Below are positions 24,355 to 38,381 of a stretch of DNA of 43,304 bases, piece after piece. The number at the start of each line of letters is the position of its first letter. The stretch's first letter is position 1. Source of the stretch: a virus; IMG/VR virus record IMGVR_UViG_3300038441_000470, positions 1 to 43,304 of that record. One strand, given 5' to 3'. Made by a program: the position numbers and the translations under genes. The notes beneath the pieces are model-generated. The model did not search any database. It was not told the DNA's origin and saw nothing but the letters and a program-made list of their open reading frames with translations.

Positions 24355-24383
24355 AGTATCGTTGGCGTTGATCTGCGTGTCAA
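24355..24383 (-). promoter_or_regulatory. left-arm sigma70-like promoter
   Basis: On the minus strand a perfect TTGACA (24378-24383), 17 nt, and GATACT (24355-24360, 4 of 6 to TATAAT). Long A/T tracts just upstream (24385-24406) look like an UP element. It would start the lysis/structural arm near 24348. Confidence 0.7.
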
Positions 24384-24431
24384 GCGGATTTTTCAAAAAA
24401 TTTTTCGGGGGAATTTTGGGGCTTAGCGTTG

Positions 24432-24443
24432 GCGTTTCAGAGG
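24432..24443 (+). repeat. 12-bp direct repeat GCGTTTCAGAGG, copy 1
   Basis: Exact copy of the 12-mer at 25129-25140, with further similarity just downstream. The two copies bracket the iteron region. Confidence 0.75.
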
Positions 24444-24497
24444 TTGGATTAAAAATTTTAGTCCAGGGTTTAAACGATACCCGGATTTCGAACTTCG

Positions 24498-24995
24498 GGC
24501 ACAGATTTTCACTAGCTGGTCACGATATAAATCGCAGTCAAAAGGACGATACCCCGGTGGGTACGGTCCCCGTTTTTCGACCCCCGCGCTGGAACCCGCG
24601 TGCTAGAGCCTGCGCTTCAGGTTCGTTAGCTCGCTATCATCCATACAGATAAAAGTACAACGCTGTAAGTCCTTGAATCAATGGGCGCCATACAGATCAT
24701 ACAGTTCTTGGCACAACGCTAAATGGGCACCGCACACGGATAATACGGTCGCATACAGATGGTCCATACGGATGCAGCCGCTCTAGCACGCCGGCCTTAC
24801 AGATCCATACAGAAAACCCCCCTATTCTACTGAGCATATATATAGAGCATATACTCTATTTTTAGGTAACCTTCAAGATATAGAGTTATATGTATGTAAT
24901 GTATGCCACTGTGCCAAGCCCCCATTCCATGTGCCCTCCAGCTCCCATACAGAAGCCCCAAAGGATCTGTATTCACCTACAGATACATCTGTGTG
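24498..24995. repeat. array of CATACAGAT-like iterons
   Basis: Plus-strand copies (exact or with one or two changes) begin at 24498, 24642, 24689, 24698, 24733, 24752, 24765, 24796, 24806, 24946 and 24976. Inverted copies lie at 24965-24973 and 24987-24995. Exact CATACAGAT occurs at 24642, 24689 and 24752, and two copies touch directly (24689-24706). Spacing is irregular, so this resembles a protein-binding array rather than a satellite. Confidence 0.85.
24831..24906. other. AT-rich island with GAGCATATA repeat and TAGAG/CTCTA hairpin
   Basis: About three quarters A+T in a roughly 60% GC genome. It contains GAGCATATA twice (24832 and 24845) and an inverted TAGAG/CTCTA pair, and lies between iteron clusters. 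It would be an easy melting site. Confidence 0.75.
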
Positions 24996-25069: not shown

Positions 25070-25128
25070 GTGCCCACCGTAAACCAAGCCCCCAAGACCC
25101 CCAAATCCAGCAAAAAGCGCCCCATTTA

Positions 25129-25140
25129 GCGTTTCAGAGG
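25129..25140 (+). repeat. 12-bp direct repeat GCGTTTCAGAGG, copy 2
   Basis: Second copy of the 12-mer at 24432, ending 19 bp before the right promoter -35 box. Confidence 0.75.
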
Positions 25141-25159
25141 CTAGACGATAAACGGTATA

Positions 25160-25188
25160 TTGACATCCCGGCACAACGCGCATAACCT
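25160..25188 (+). promoter_or_regulatory. right-arm sigma70-like promoter
   Basis: A perfect TTGACA at 25160-25165. The -10 is either CATAAC (25181-25186, 15-nt spacer, 4 of 6) or TAACCT (25183-25188, 17-nt spacer, 3 of 6). A small hairpin GGGTG/CACCC (25198-25212) sits between the likely start and the ribosome site of the first gene. Confidence 0.6.
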
Positions 25189-33511: not shown

Positions 33512-33834
33512 TACCCGATGGCTGGGTGCTGGTGCCAGTTGTGCCCAGCGAACGGATGCTGACGGAGTTCAGCGGTGTGTGGGCGCCGTGGCTACCAAAG
33601 AAACGGCGCGAGCTGGAGCTGAAAGCCTACGCCGACATGCTGGCCGTGGTGCCGACAGCTCCAGTGGGTGACAGCAGCCAGGTGCAAGCCCTGCAGGCAC
33701 AGATTCGCCGGCTGTACAAGGAGCTGGACATATCGAAAGCGGAAACAAAAAAGGCCTACAAGAAACTCAAGTACGCGTGGGACAAGATCCGCGCTCTAGA
33801 GGTGCACAATGAACGGACCGATTCCATTCACTGA
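33508..33834 (+). CDS. coiled-coil early protein (108 aa, GTG start)
   Basis: A 108-residue protein: an N-terminal tryptophan-rich part (IPDGWVLVPVVPSER) and a C-terminal coil (QALQAQIRRLYKELD). Starts GTG in ATGA-like overlap (GTGA). Overlaps the HTH gene by 26 nt. Confidence 0.6.
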   Translation: MIPDGWVLVPVVPSERMLTEFSGVWAPWLPKKRRELELKAYADMLAVVPTAPVGDSSQVQALQAQIRRLYKELDISKAETKKAYKKLKYAWDKIRALEVHNERTDSIH

Positions 33835-34321
33835 CCGGCAGCTGTTCACCATGGCCACCCTGTACGCACGCGGTGAGGGCGTGAAAACCATTGCCGAGAA
33901 GTACGGCGTAGCGCACACCGTGATCAGGCAAAGGCTGATGACCTTGGGTATCCGACTGCGCCTACGCGGGGCACCACGCGTGAAGGACATGGACCTGGAC
34001 GTGCTGGCCAAGGCCCACGCCCTGCGCAAAGAAGACTACTCGTGGCGCTGGATAGCCAGGCAGCTCGGCCAGCCTGACCACCTGCGGCTTGCCCAGGCAG
34101 TCGGACGGGCGGCGCGCAACGGGCTGTTAGGTGCGCACAACAAGTACCATAATGGTCGACCCGGCATCGCCTACTTCGACCTGATGCTGAACTGTGCCAA
34201 AGCGATGCACGAAGACGGCCTGACCTGGCCAGTCATTGCCCAGGCGTTCGGCGCGTCACCTACTGCCCTTAACCACGCTGTATCGACGATGGAACAGGTA
34301 CCGTATGAATCCTGCGCTTGA
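33809..34321 (+). CDS. HTH DNA-binding protein
   Basis: A 170-residue basic protein. At least one clear helix-turn-helix (residues 11-50, LYARGEGVKTIAEKYGVAHT) and two similar helical units later (SWRWIARQLGQPDH; TWPVIAQAFGASPTAL). Position immediately before the primase gene makes it a candidate origin binder or late/early switch. AGAGGTG lies upstream. Confidence 0.7.
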   Translation: MNGPIPFTDRQLFTMATLYARGEGVKTIAEKYGVAHTVIRQRLMTLGIRLRLRGAPRVKDMDLDVLAKAHALRKEDYSWRWIARQLGQPDHLRLAQAVGRAARNGLLGAHNKYHNGRPGIAYFDLMLNCAKAMHEDGLTWPVIAQAFGASPTALNHAVSTMEQVPYESCA

Positions 34322-35150
34322 ATACTTGGCCAAGAGCTGGCTGGTCATCCCCCTGCGGGTTGGTGAGAAGGTGCCGGCTGTGAAGTGGATGGGGCTGCAG
34401 GATCTGCGCCCGCCGTTCACCAATGCATTCGCCAACCCCTGGCAGAACAACCCCAGGTTCGGGCTGGCCGTGCTGATGAAACCGTCCGGGTTGGTCTGCG
34501 TCGACTGCGACAGCGAAGCTGCCGTGCGTGAGGCCATGGGGTTGTGCCAGGAGCCGTGCAACAACATCGTGCTGAGCCGCAACGGGGCACACTTCTACTA
34601 CACGCTGCCCACAGGTGTGCCGGCGCTGCGCCGCATCCAGTGTGGAGCCAGCCAGAAGATCGATATCATGGCTGACGGCTACATGGCTGCGCCGCCGTCC
34701 ATCCACCCCAGCGGGCACAAGTACCAGTGGGTGCAGCAAGGCCCTTTGCAGCCACTTCCCGAGTGGGCGTGCAAGTACCTGTCCGAGGTCAAGGTCAGGT
34801 CCATATCGAGCCTGGGGATCACCCCCGAGGACGCCATGGGGGCATGGCCGCACAACGACGAAGACATGAAAGCGCTGCAGATCGCTTTGAAGGGCGTGAA
34901 CCCGACACTGTATAAATATCTAGCAGGCACAGATAAACCTCTTGATAGATCAAAGGCTTTGTGGTTGCTGACCAACACCCTTATTCGTTTAAGGATTAGA
35001 GGTGGCCCCGGTACACCACAAAAGTTGGATGACAAGAGCATCGCCAAGATCGTATGGTATGGGACTCTCGGTGAGAAACCCCGGCAAAGAGGGTGGCAGT
35101 GGCTCTGTGACGAGATATCCCGCGCTAGGCTTGAGCTGACGCCCGATTGA
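34305..35150 (+). CDS. Prim-Pol (AEP) primase
   Basis: A 281-residue protein. Bifunctional primase/polymerase core: LVIPLRVGEKVPA at the start, VCVDCDS (D67/D69 metal site), SRNGAHFYY (H96) and PPSIHPSG (130-137). The C-terminal 80 residues are a small helical extension with more AT-rich codons (about 34906-35060). Makes primers for the polymerase at 36525, together with the helicase next to it. Overlaps the HTH gene by 17 nt. Confidence 0.85.
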   Translation: MNPALEYLAKSWLVIPLRVGEKVPAVKWMGLQDLRPPFTNAFANPWQNNPRFGLAVLMKPSGLVCVDCDSEAAVREAMGLCQEPCNNIVLSRNGAHFYYTLPTGVPALRRIQCGASQKIDIMADGYMAAPPSIHPSGHKYQWVQQGPLQPLPEWACKYLSEVKVRSISSLGITPEDAMGAWPHNDEDMKALQIALKGVNPTLYKYLAGTDKPLDRSKALWLLTNTLIRLRIRGGPGTPQKLDDKSIAKIVWYGTLGEKPRQRGWQWLCDEISRARLELTPD

Positions 35151-35165: not shown

Positions 35166-36515
35166 ATGACAACCACAATTGACAATGAGTCGCGGGAGTT
35201 GTTGAAGCAGATTTCACAAGACTTCATCAAGTTCGACGGCGGTTCTGCACCTATGGCCTTCCATATCGAGACAGGCGACAAGCTGGGCAAAGAGGGGTTC
35301 ATCGACTATTGTGCTACGCACTACGGAGACGTGGTGTTCATCGACCAAACCGGCGCCGAAGTTGACCGCGCGTCCAGCGGGTCGATCTGGTGGCAGTGGA
35401 AGGACCATTCGCGCCGGGCGGTACGTCGCATCATCATGGAGCCTACCGAGAGGCCAGAGCACGAGGGCAACCCGGAAGAGTTCAACCGTTGGTTTGTGCT
35501 CAAGAAGACCATGGCCGAGCCGGATTACAATGCCACAATCAACGACGCGGCACCGTTCATCGAGCACCTGATGACGATCAGCGACGGCGACCAGATCGGC
35601 GTCATGTACTTCCTGAATTGGTTGGCACAGCTCTACCAATACCCGAGCACCAAGATTCCTGTGGCCATCATGATGTACTCGAAGTTCGGCGGCGTGGGCA
35701 AAAACCTGATCCAGAAGCTGATGGTCAAGGTGTTCGGCAAGCCACTGGTAGCCGGAGTGTCCGGCAAGCGTCTGCAGTCCAATTTCATGGACGCTATCGA
35801 GCACAAGCGGTTGATTTTCATCAACGAATTGGCGCGGTCTGACCGGGCTGACGGGTACGAAGACTTCAAGACGCAGATTTCCGAGGAAGATACGCAGTTC
35901 GAGGGCAAAGGCCGGGCTGCACGGGAAATCCGAAACATCGCGCACTACATCATCACCACCAACAACATCGATTGCTTGCCGCTGATGCAGAACGACCGCC
36001 GCATCGCTGTGCTGATGACCGTAGAACGCCCGCTGGAAGCGGCCTATTACCGGGCGTTCATTGCCTGGGTGAATGGCCCCGGCGCCGGCATCGTGGCCAA
36101 CCTGCTGCGCACCTGGGAGTTCCCGGCCGACTGGGATCCGTACGCACCAGCACCGCAGACCATGGCCGCGCTGACCGTGCAGAAGGAAGCCTGCGGGCCG
36201 CTGCAGGGCCTGATTGAGCAGCTGGTAGAGGAAAGCATCCCGCCGTTCGACAAGGACGTGGGCCGGCCGATGGACCTGTGCATGCAGATGGCCACCTTGT
36301 ACGGTGCCAGCATCGCCAAGGGTGCAGTGGTTAACAATAAAACGCTGCCAAAGATCCTGTCCGCACTGCCTGGGGCACAGTACTTGCACCTCTCGTTCAT
36401 CAAGGCCGATGGCTCGCGAACCACGGCGCGGGCATGGTGTTGGCGCAACCAAGAGAAGTGGGCAAAGATGACACAACAAGAAATTGCAGAGGCAATGGGC
36501 CTAACTAAAACATAG
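35166..36515 (+). CDS. replicative SF3 helicase (D5/DUF5906-like)
   Basis: A 449-residue protein. Walker A is SKFGGVGKN (residues 172-180), with Asn in the usual Ser/Thr place, as often in this family. Walker B is KRLIFINEL (residues 214-222, E221), and sensor IITTNNID follows. The 160-residue N-terminal part likely links to the Prim-Pol. It unwinds at the fork as a hexamer. AAGGTGAG ribosome site upstream. Confidence 0.85.
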   Translation: MTTTIDNESRELLKQISQDFIKFDGGSAPMAFHIETGDKLGKEGFIDYCATHYGDVVFIDQTGAEVDRASSGSIWWQWKDHSRRAVRRIIMEPTERPEHEGNPEEFNRWFVLKKTMAEPDYNATINDAAPFIEHLMTISDGDQIGVMYFLNWLAQLYQYPSTKIPVAIMMYSKFGGVGKNLIQKLMVKVFGKPLVAGVSGKRLQSNFMDAIEHKRLIFINELARSDRADGYEDFKTQISEEDTQFEGKGRAAREIRNIAHYIITTNNIDCLPLMQNDRRIAVLMTVERPLEAAYYRAFIAWVNGPGAGIVANLLRTWEFPADWDPYAPAPQTMAALTVQKEACGPLQGLIEQLVEESIPPFDKDVGRPMDLCMQMATLYGASIAKGAVVNNKTLPKILSALPGAQYLHLSFIKADGSRTTARAWCWRNQEKWAKMTQQEIAEAMGLTKT

Positions 36516-36524
36516 GTATCCACC

Positions 36525-38381
36525 ATGTTCTTATGGAAAGATTACGAAACCTACTACGACAACGACTATAGCCTCAAGAAGATGACCCGCACCATGTACC
36601 TGAACGATCCTCGTTTCAAGGCGCATGGGTGTTCCTTCGCGATGGACGACAGCGACCCGTTTTGGGTGACCGGCTCCGACTTGCCGGCCTTCTGGAAGGA
36701 TGTGGGGCCGCACGTCACGGGCATGTGCTGTCACAACGGCCTGTTCGACCACGGCATTACAGCCAAGTTTTTTATGCCAGAACGAAAGGAACTACACGAC
36801 ACAATGTCGATGGCACAGGTGGCGCTGATGCGGCGCTTCCCAGGCCTGCGCATGAGCCTGGCTGCCCTGGCACAGAAGCTGTTCCCGAACGACCCGGCCA
36901 TGCACAAGTTCGAGGGCGTGCTGCCCGAGTTCCAGGGTGTGTGGCAGCTGGACCGGGCGCAGGAAGGGCGCATGGCCGACTATGCCAACCAAGACAACTT
37001 CGTCATGCGGGAGATTTACCGCTGGCTGATGAAGAACAGCGACACGCCGTGGCAGCGGGTACTGCGCGACATCCACCTGACCCTGAGCATGGGCGTTTAC
37101 CCTGTGCTTGAGATGAACACCGATCTGGCCGCGGCTGTGTACCGGAGCGAGCTGGCTGCCAAGGAAAAGGCAGTGGTCGAAATGAACATCGAGCGGTCGC
37201 ACCTGCGGTCCAATCCGAAGTTCGCTGCGCTGCTGCTGGCCAACGGCATGACTGAAGCCGAGCTGCCGACCAAGCTGAATGCGAAAGGCGACGTGACCTA
37301 CGCCTTCGCCGCTAAAGACCCGGACTTCGTGCGCCTGGCCGACCACCCTATCGCCAACATTCGCGCGCTGTACGAGCTGCGCATTGGCGAGAAGTCGGCA
37401 CAGATCATGAATCGGTCCTACGTTTTCAGCCAGCTGCCGTCACCTGTGCCTGTGCCGCTTGTGGTCGCTGCTGGGCACACCGGGCGCCACGGCGGCGACG
37501 AGTACAACCTGCAGAACCTCAAGCGCGGCAGTGACCTGCGCCGCTGCATCCGCGCAGCGAAGGACCACAAGATTCTGGTGGGGGATGCCAAGCAGATCGA
37601 GCTGCGCGGCAACGCTTGGTTCTGCGACGAAACAACCCTTACCGACCTGTGGGCCATCGACCCCAACTACGACGTGTATAGCGACCTGGCCACCGTGATC
37701 TACGGCCGGACGATCACCAAGGCCAACGAAGACGAGCGCTTCAACGGCAAGACGGGCGAGCTGGCCTGCCAGTACGGGGCGGGTGAGGAACGCATCGCAG
37801 CAGCCCTGGAGACGGCCACACCACCTGTGCCACGGGAAGAGGCACGGCGCCTGGCACCGATCATCAAGCGGGCGTACCGGTCCAAGCGGACCAAGATCGT
37901 GGCGATGTGGAAGTGGCTAAACGACACGGCCATCAAGGCCATGGCCGGCATGATACCGCCCGTCGAGCACAAGGGTGTACGCTTCGAGTTGCACCGCGCC
38001 ATCCTACCCAGTGGCCGCTGCCTGTGGTACAACAACCTGCATGTGAACGGCAAGGGTGATTGGGTCTACGACTTCGTGGACAAGAAGGGCGGGCGCTGTG
38101 TTGTCTTCGAGAAGAAGCTGTACGGCGGGGCGCTGCTAGAGAACCTGATCCAAGCCCTGTGCTACGACATCTTCATGTTCCAGCTGGACCTGGCTGACCA
38201 GTACGTCGCCCACCCAGCCATGGCCGTGCACGACGAAGGTGTGTTCATGATTCACGAGACGAAAGTGGCACAGGCGATGGCTGACCTGGGCGTGATCTAC
38301 CAATGCGCACCGGCATGGTTCCGGGGCGTCCCTATCCTGGGCGAGTTCAAGTACGGAGACACCTACTATGACGCCAAGTAA
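36525..38381 (+). CDS. DNA polymerase, family A with 3'-5' exonuclease
   Basis: A 618-residue polymerase. Exo motifs: DYET (D6/E8), NGLFD (N71-D75), YANQD (Y153-D157). Polymerase motifs: TGR at about 319-321, motif A DAKQIELR (D354), motif B R405-x3-K409-x7-Y417, motif C HDE (569-571). All catalytic acids are present, so polymerisation and proofreading should work. Motif A has Ala-Lys where DYSQIELR is common. No thumb insertion is obvious. Overlaps the Cas4-like gene by 14 nt. Confidence 0.95.
   Translation: MFLWKDYETYYDNDYSLKKMTRTMYLNDPRFKAHGCSFAMDDSDPFWVTGSDLPAFWKDVGPHVTGMCCHNGLFDHGITAKFFMPERKELHDTMSMAQVALMRRFPGLRMSLAALAQKLFPNDPAMHKFEGVLPEFQGVWQLDRAQEGRMADYANQDNFVMREIYRWLMKNSDTPWQRVLRDIHLTLSMGVYPVLEMNTDLAAAVYRSELAAKEKAVVEMNIERSHLRSNPKFAALLLANGMTEAELPTKLNAKGDVTYAFAAKDPDFVRLADHPIANIRALYELRIGEKSAQIMNRSYVFSQLPSPVPVPLVVAAGHTGRHGGDEYNLQNLKRGSDLRRCIRAAKDHKILVGDAKQIELRGNAWFCDETTLTDLWAIDPNYDVYSDLATVIYGRTITKANEDERFNGKTGELACQYGAGEERIAAALETATPPVPREEARRLAPIIKRAYRSKRTKIVAMWKWLNDTAIKAMAGMIPPVEHKGVRFELHRAILPSGRCLWYNNLHVNGKGDWVYDFVDKKGGRCVVFEKKLYGGALLENLIQALCYDIFMFQLDLADQYVAHPAMAVHDEGVFMIHETKVAQAMADLGVIYQCAPAWFRGVPILGEFKYGDTYYDAK

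Follow-up and report, generated by a model that had tools for sequence, protein, structure and literature searches.

The non-coding region at positions 24642-24995 of IMGVR_UViG_3300038441_000470, the record of an uncultured bacterial virus, is probably a phage replication origin composed of iterons and an unwinding element. The whole 43.3 kb record (43,304 nucleotides) was analysed and is referred to below as the window. Three features of an iteron-type origin were found in this region: clustered short repeats, an AT-rich element and a layout that is conserved in three relatives (G002, G003 and L009). The array sits between two outward-facing gene blocks. The leftward block encodes terminase, portal, major head protein and other virion proteins, with the terminase genes ~3 kb or less from the array, and the rightward block encodes a Prim-Pol, a DUF5906 helicase, a family A DNA polymerase (PolA), an exonuclease and a further DNA helicase, with the replication genes ~9 kb downstream of the array. 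The virus lineage and the 9-bp word repeated in the array are both undescribed, and the layout is of an already known kind. A blastn comparison of the control region with phages and plasmids and an Rfam search of the region each returned zero matches, and a terminase search of genome contigs found neither a prophage nor a host. An exact 69-bp repeat is present at both contig ends (1-69 and 43236-43304) and is probably the overlap of a circular assembly.

In the preliminary description, the array was placed at 24498-24995 and presented as a dense set of copies of the 9-bp motif CATACAGAT. At up to two mismatches, this interval contains 11 plus-strand and 3 minus-strand matches. Thus, the 11 plus-strand copies reported before were recovered, together with the three exact copies (24642, 24689 and 24752) and the touching pair (24689-24697 and 24698-24706), while the inverted copies number three rather than two. 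The interval had to be shortened: its first ~140 bp (24498-24641) carry no copies, and the true array spans 24642-24995, where 9 plus-strand and 3 minus-strand copies, 12 altogether, were identified at up to one mismatch. Because the motif had been picked after looking at the sequence, the comparison with 300 dinucleotide shuffles of the region used the best count reached by any 9-mer; this best count averaged 3.2 and never exceeded 7, so the 12 copies survive and the claim of a dense array stands. Genome-wide, the only 500-bp stretches denser than the array are low-complexity repeats at ~41.4-41.8 kb. Over the whole window, CATACAGAT matches at up to two mismatches are at chance level (76 against 68 ± 8 expected), with no excess near other genes; the array is therefore local and not dispersed over the genome, and dispersed stoperator-like sites were rejected for this reason. 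The positions bordering the 9-bp core are poorly informative.

The copies revealed by the motif scan are arranged in two arms. The left arm (24642-24814) consists of CATACAGAT-type copies at 24642, 24689, 24698, 24733, 24752, 24765, 24796 and 24806, every one on the plus strand, with a spacing of 9-47 bp that in several cases is 9-13 bp; a degenerate extra copy, AATACGGTC, at 24742 produces a near-tandem run (24733/24742/24752/24765). The right arm (24946-24995) has copies on both strands, at 24946 (+), 24965 (-), 24976 (+) and 24987 (-), and the last three of these form short inverted repeats. The irregular iteron spacing is a point against an origin. Mid-array, with iteron copies on both sides, lies an AT-rich block (24835-24904), a putative DNA unwinding element. 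In nearest-neighbour calculations, no other 70-bp stretch of the 43.3 kb genome is less stable (-74.8 kcal/mol; mean -108.0, sd 5.3). Copies at 24835 (CATATATAT) and 24888 (minus strand) fall inside this AT run, and both are weak. The cumulative AT-skew of the genome reaches its minimum at 24635, at the array edge, although this switch is not independent evidence because gene direction switches at the same place. The 70-bp segment that ranks second in low stability genome-wide lies at the helicase/PolA gene junction (36501-36570), where a similar dip occurs in L002 (11315).

Another important question is whether the motif is conserved in related phages, since the preliminary description had named a lack of such conservation among the findings that would refute it. 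Relatives were obtained from protein searches and comprise three records of 41-44 kb (G001, G002 and G003) and three fragments (L004, L009 and L011), with terminases 71-79% identical to that of the window; a PolA search retrieved no relatives, and a helicase alignment search retrieved only those already known. All six relatives possess a divergent non-coding region with an AT-rich, low-stability block in the same place. With the search motif defined in the window alone, the control regions of G002, G003 and L009 contain 22 copies of CATACAGAT at up to two mismatches, compared with 4.1 ± 3.0 for 400 permuted forms of the motif, all of which stayed below 22; these three relatives were picked after a first look at the control regions, which makes the permutation figure somewhat optimistic. 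The motif is thus enriched around the AT block in these three relatives, and the preliminary description was not refuted on this point. A position weight matrix test at a threshold of 7 gave 0/200 shuffles for both G002 and L009 and a weak result for G003 (13/200).

The layout of the copies is also shared. G002 and G003 carry plus-strand copies in the left arm, as the window does, and a minus-strand copy at +53 to +55, counted from where the AT block starts, is common to the window, G002, G003 and L009 (0/400 permuted motifs), a coincidence that is not fully independent because this position belongs to the generally conserved edge of the block. In the relatives only, 10 plus-strand and 2 minus-strand copies lie to the left of the block and 2 plus-strand and 8 minus-strand copies to the right (Fisher p 0.008, the orientation bias having been noticed before the test was applied). 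The remaining relatives have other repeats in the same zone: TTTACG-type repeats in L011 and L004, those of L004 being near chance level, and AGATCTTGG-type repeats in G001. Such differences are expected if initiator specificity changes.

Several further elements accompany the array. To the right of the AT block, a conserved element at 24907-24920 (plus strand) reads TGTGCCAAGCC in the window and is TGTGCTAAGCC-like in relatives; relative to the block start, it lies at +63 to +85 in the window, G002, G003, L009 and L011. On the left, the array is bounded by a conserved AAAGGACG element (24540-24575, minus strand), a terminator-like hairpin with a U-tail when read leftward, which is exact in six of seven control regions and has a folding z-score of only -1.2. 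This hairpin may be a terminator that keeps leftward transcripts of the origin region from reaching the late promoter, or else an antitermination target; when contigs were scanned for exact matches to the AAAAGGACG hairpin element, no other contig contained it. Both candidate promoters are predicted outside the array. The leftward one, a sigma-70 promoter from the promoter scan (24355-24383, minus strand, TTGACA-17-GATACT), is ~260 bp to the left, and the rightward one (25160-25188, plus strand, TTGACA-17-TAACCT), which has a weak -10 and was read by eye, being absent from the promoter scan, is ~165 bp to the right.

The rightward operon adjoining the array contains the genes of Prim-Pol, helicase and PolA, which are conserved in G001-G003. 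Prim-Pol, an archaeo-eukaryotic primase (34308-35150, plus strand; PF09250, E 5e-23), is 52-61% identical in these three relatives, and the DUF5906 helicase (35166-36515, plus strand; PF19263), a separate protein related to the helicase of the NrS-1 polymerase, is 51-58% identical; the family profile of the latter matches PDB 6k9c/6k9e with an E-value of 7e-18. The DUF5906 helicase is our candidate for the protein that binds and melts the origin. An origin-binding winged-helix domain was sought at its C-terminus with poor AlphaFold models (mean pLDDT 48.7 for the helicase and 61.2 for its C-terminal domain) and none was demonstrated; Foldseek with the C-terminal domain model found no PDB match at E <= 0.001. 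Just upstream of Prim-Pol, 33809-34321 encodes a protein of 170 aa in which two or three segments are HTH-like. It had been put forward as a binder of the motif, a suggestion that did not survive comparison with the relatives: neither a sequence search of G001-G003 and the fragments nor a Pfam-family search of G001-G003 gave a match, and since the protein was not found in the complete-length G002 and G003, which keep the motif, it is unlikely to be a general binder and was rejected as a conserved one. It could act in the phage of the window alone, as a possible phage-specific regulator. A host DnaA-dependent origin was also rejected, because the control region of the window has no DnaA box (TTATNCACA at up to one mismatch).

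The following course of initiation can be proposed. An initiator encoded by the phage, for which the helicase/Prim-Pol pair or one of its partners is the likeliest candidate, would bind the CATACAGAT iterons, and binding on both sides would melt the AT-rich block (24835-24904). The helicase would load at the melted block, Prim-Pol would prime and PolA would then extend, with replication probably proceeding in both directions, as suggested by the tendency of the iterons to point inward from both sides. The identity of the binder, the function as an origin and the bidirectionality are what we infer.

The same array had been described as either an iteron array or an operator array, and our data favour the former, with the latter as the main rival. 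As an operator array, the CATACAGAT copies would be bound cooperatively by a phage regulator that controls divergent early (rightward) and late (leftward) promoters. The location between divergent operons, the resemblance of the inverted pairs of the right arm to dimer sites and the presence of the HTH-matching protein at 33809 all agree with this; nevertheless, the candidate promoters are predicted 165-260 bp outside the array, there is no surplus of copies near other genes, the HTH protein was not found in the relatives keeping the motif, and a conserved AT block with inward-pointing sites is not explained by the operator model itself. We therefore consider regulation of this kind unlikely. 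An origin is favoured over an operator because the array flanks the least stable DNA, the candidate promoters lie outside it and the motif flanks the AT block in three relatives. The two functions might be combined if the initiator of the origin also autoregulated the early operon through the same iterons. Autoregulation of this type is seen in many iteron plasmids, and here the iterons do lie upstream of the early operon encoding the replication proteins; yet those genes begin only ~9 kb further on, and 165 bp separate the candidate promoter from the closest copy, so we regard the dual role as improbable.

Two other explanations have still less in their favour. A packaging (pac/cos) or partition site, at which the terminase small subunit or a ParB-like protein would bind the repeats, could be suspected from the terminase genes on the left, but no ParA/ParB match was present among the proteins scanned, packaging has no need of an AT block and inward-pointing symmetry, and the 69-bp repeat of the contig ends resembles an assembly overlap; such a site is very unlikely. 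That the array is a product of chance or a low-complexity artefact is scarcely credible: the two weakest copies do fall inside the AT run, but the shuffle and permutation tests refute this explanation.

A replication origin of this architecture has precedents, and the earlier statement that no described counterpart was known is too strong. The closest counterpart in anatomy is the origin of phage P4, and the annotated P4 origin was run as a control through the same tests. It contains six 8-bp type I iterons, bound by the alpha protein, with irregular spacing (10-43 bp) and mixed orientation, is non-coding and lies between divergent operons; its array contains the 70 bp that rank second in low stability in the P4 genome, compared with the least stable 70 bp in the window. 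The replication protein alpha of P4 also combines primase and helicase functions. The repeat itself differs (TGTTCACC in P4, CATACAGAT in the window), and the control region of the window holds no exact copy of the P4 type I iteron GGTGAACA. Moreover, alpha is a single protein with a TOPRIM primase, an SF3 helicase and a winged-helix domain, whereas the window encodes a separate Prim-Pol and DUF5906 helicase, with a primase of archaeo-eukaryotic rather than TOPRIM type. A second, crr-like array, which is a feature of P4, was not found in the window. With such differences in repeats and proteins, the region does not belong to the P4-type alpha/ori systems.

Other known systems share single traits with the window. 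The lambda origin likewise places tandem iterons, bound by the O protein, next to an easily melted AT-rich segment, but these iterons are 18 bp long and lie inside the O gene, and O/P-like proteins were absent among the window proteins scanned. The NrS-1 polymerase starts synthesis at a specific 8-nt sequence in the genome centre, which has two genomic copies (PMC7102993, PMC8718748). Its helicase region is related to the helicase of the window, although Prim-Pol and helicase are fused there in one protein; the recognition sequence TTTGGTTA occurs once in the window genome and not in the control region. Replicons of the pRN1 type and Bordetella phage BIP-1 resemble the window in having a Prim-Pol and an SF3-type helicase, and the origin proposed for them is a stem-loop that follows the replication gene and is stated to lack iterons (PMC4234260). 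This proposal, made for phages with Prim-Pol/SF3/winged-helix replication proteins, argues against an origin by iterons; in the window, by contrast, hardly any non-coding DNA follows the helicase gene (36515/36525), and the candidate array is 10 kb away. In the PLE satellites of Vibrio cholerae, the iteron sequence and the DNA-binding domain of the RepA initiator swap between relatives (PMC8263062). Their iterons also occupy a non-coding region, but the repeats are semi-palindromic, ~30 bp long and unrelated in sequence, and the initiator is of the RepA_N type.

A more specific model is possible but should be taken as tentative: a replicon with a Prim-Pol and a separate SF3-type helicase would fire from inward-pointing 9-bp iterons flanking a melting element, in contrast to the stem-loop and two-site origins described for Prim-Pol replicons, and the iteron sequence would switch between close relatives (ATACAG, TTTACG and AGATCTTGG types) within an otherwise constant origin. 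If this is true, iteron switching among the relatives provides a natural series for how initiator specificity changes, and close relatives with the same layout and different repeats would allow swap experiments on that specificity. The region offers a testable origin candidate in a phage lineage that is undescribed, and more generally among phages that pair an archaeo-eukaryotic Prim-Pol with a separate NrS-1-like helicase and about whose origins little is known; in the literature consulted, a stem-loop has been proposed in one such group, and NrS-1 has two possible sites.

Additional repeats were observed in and around the control region. An inverted pair, CCCGCGTGCTAGAGC / GCTCTAGCACGCCGG (24595-24609 and 24780-24794), encloses most of the left arm, and the control regions of G002, G003 and L004 contain further elements of the GCTAGAGCC type. 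A perfect 13-bp inverted repeat, AACGCTAAATGGG / CCCATTTAGCGTT, is present at 24715-24727 and 25121-25133, and a 27-bp direct repeat (78%), TTRGCGTTTCAGAGG, flanks the region at 24429-24455 and 25126-25152. Finally, the control region of L009 (2535-2603) contains several TTAAATTTAA palindromes, with single ones in the window (~25058) and in G001.
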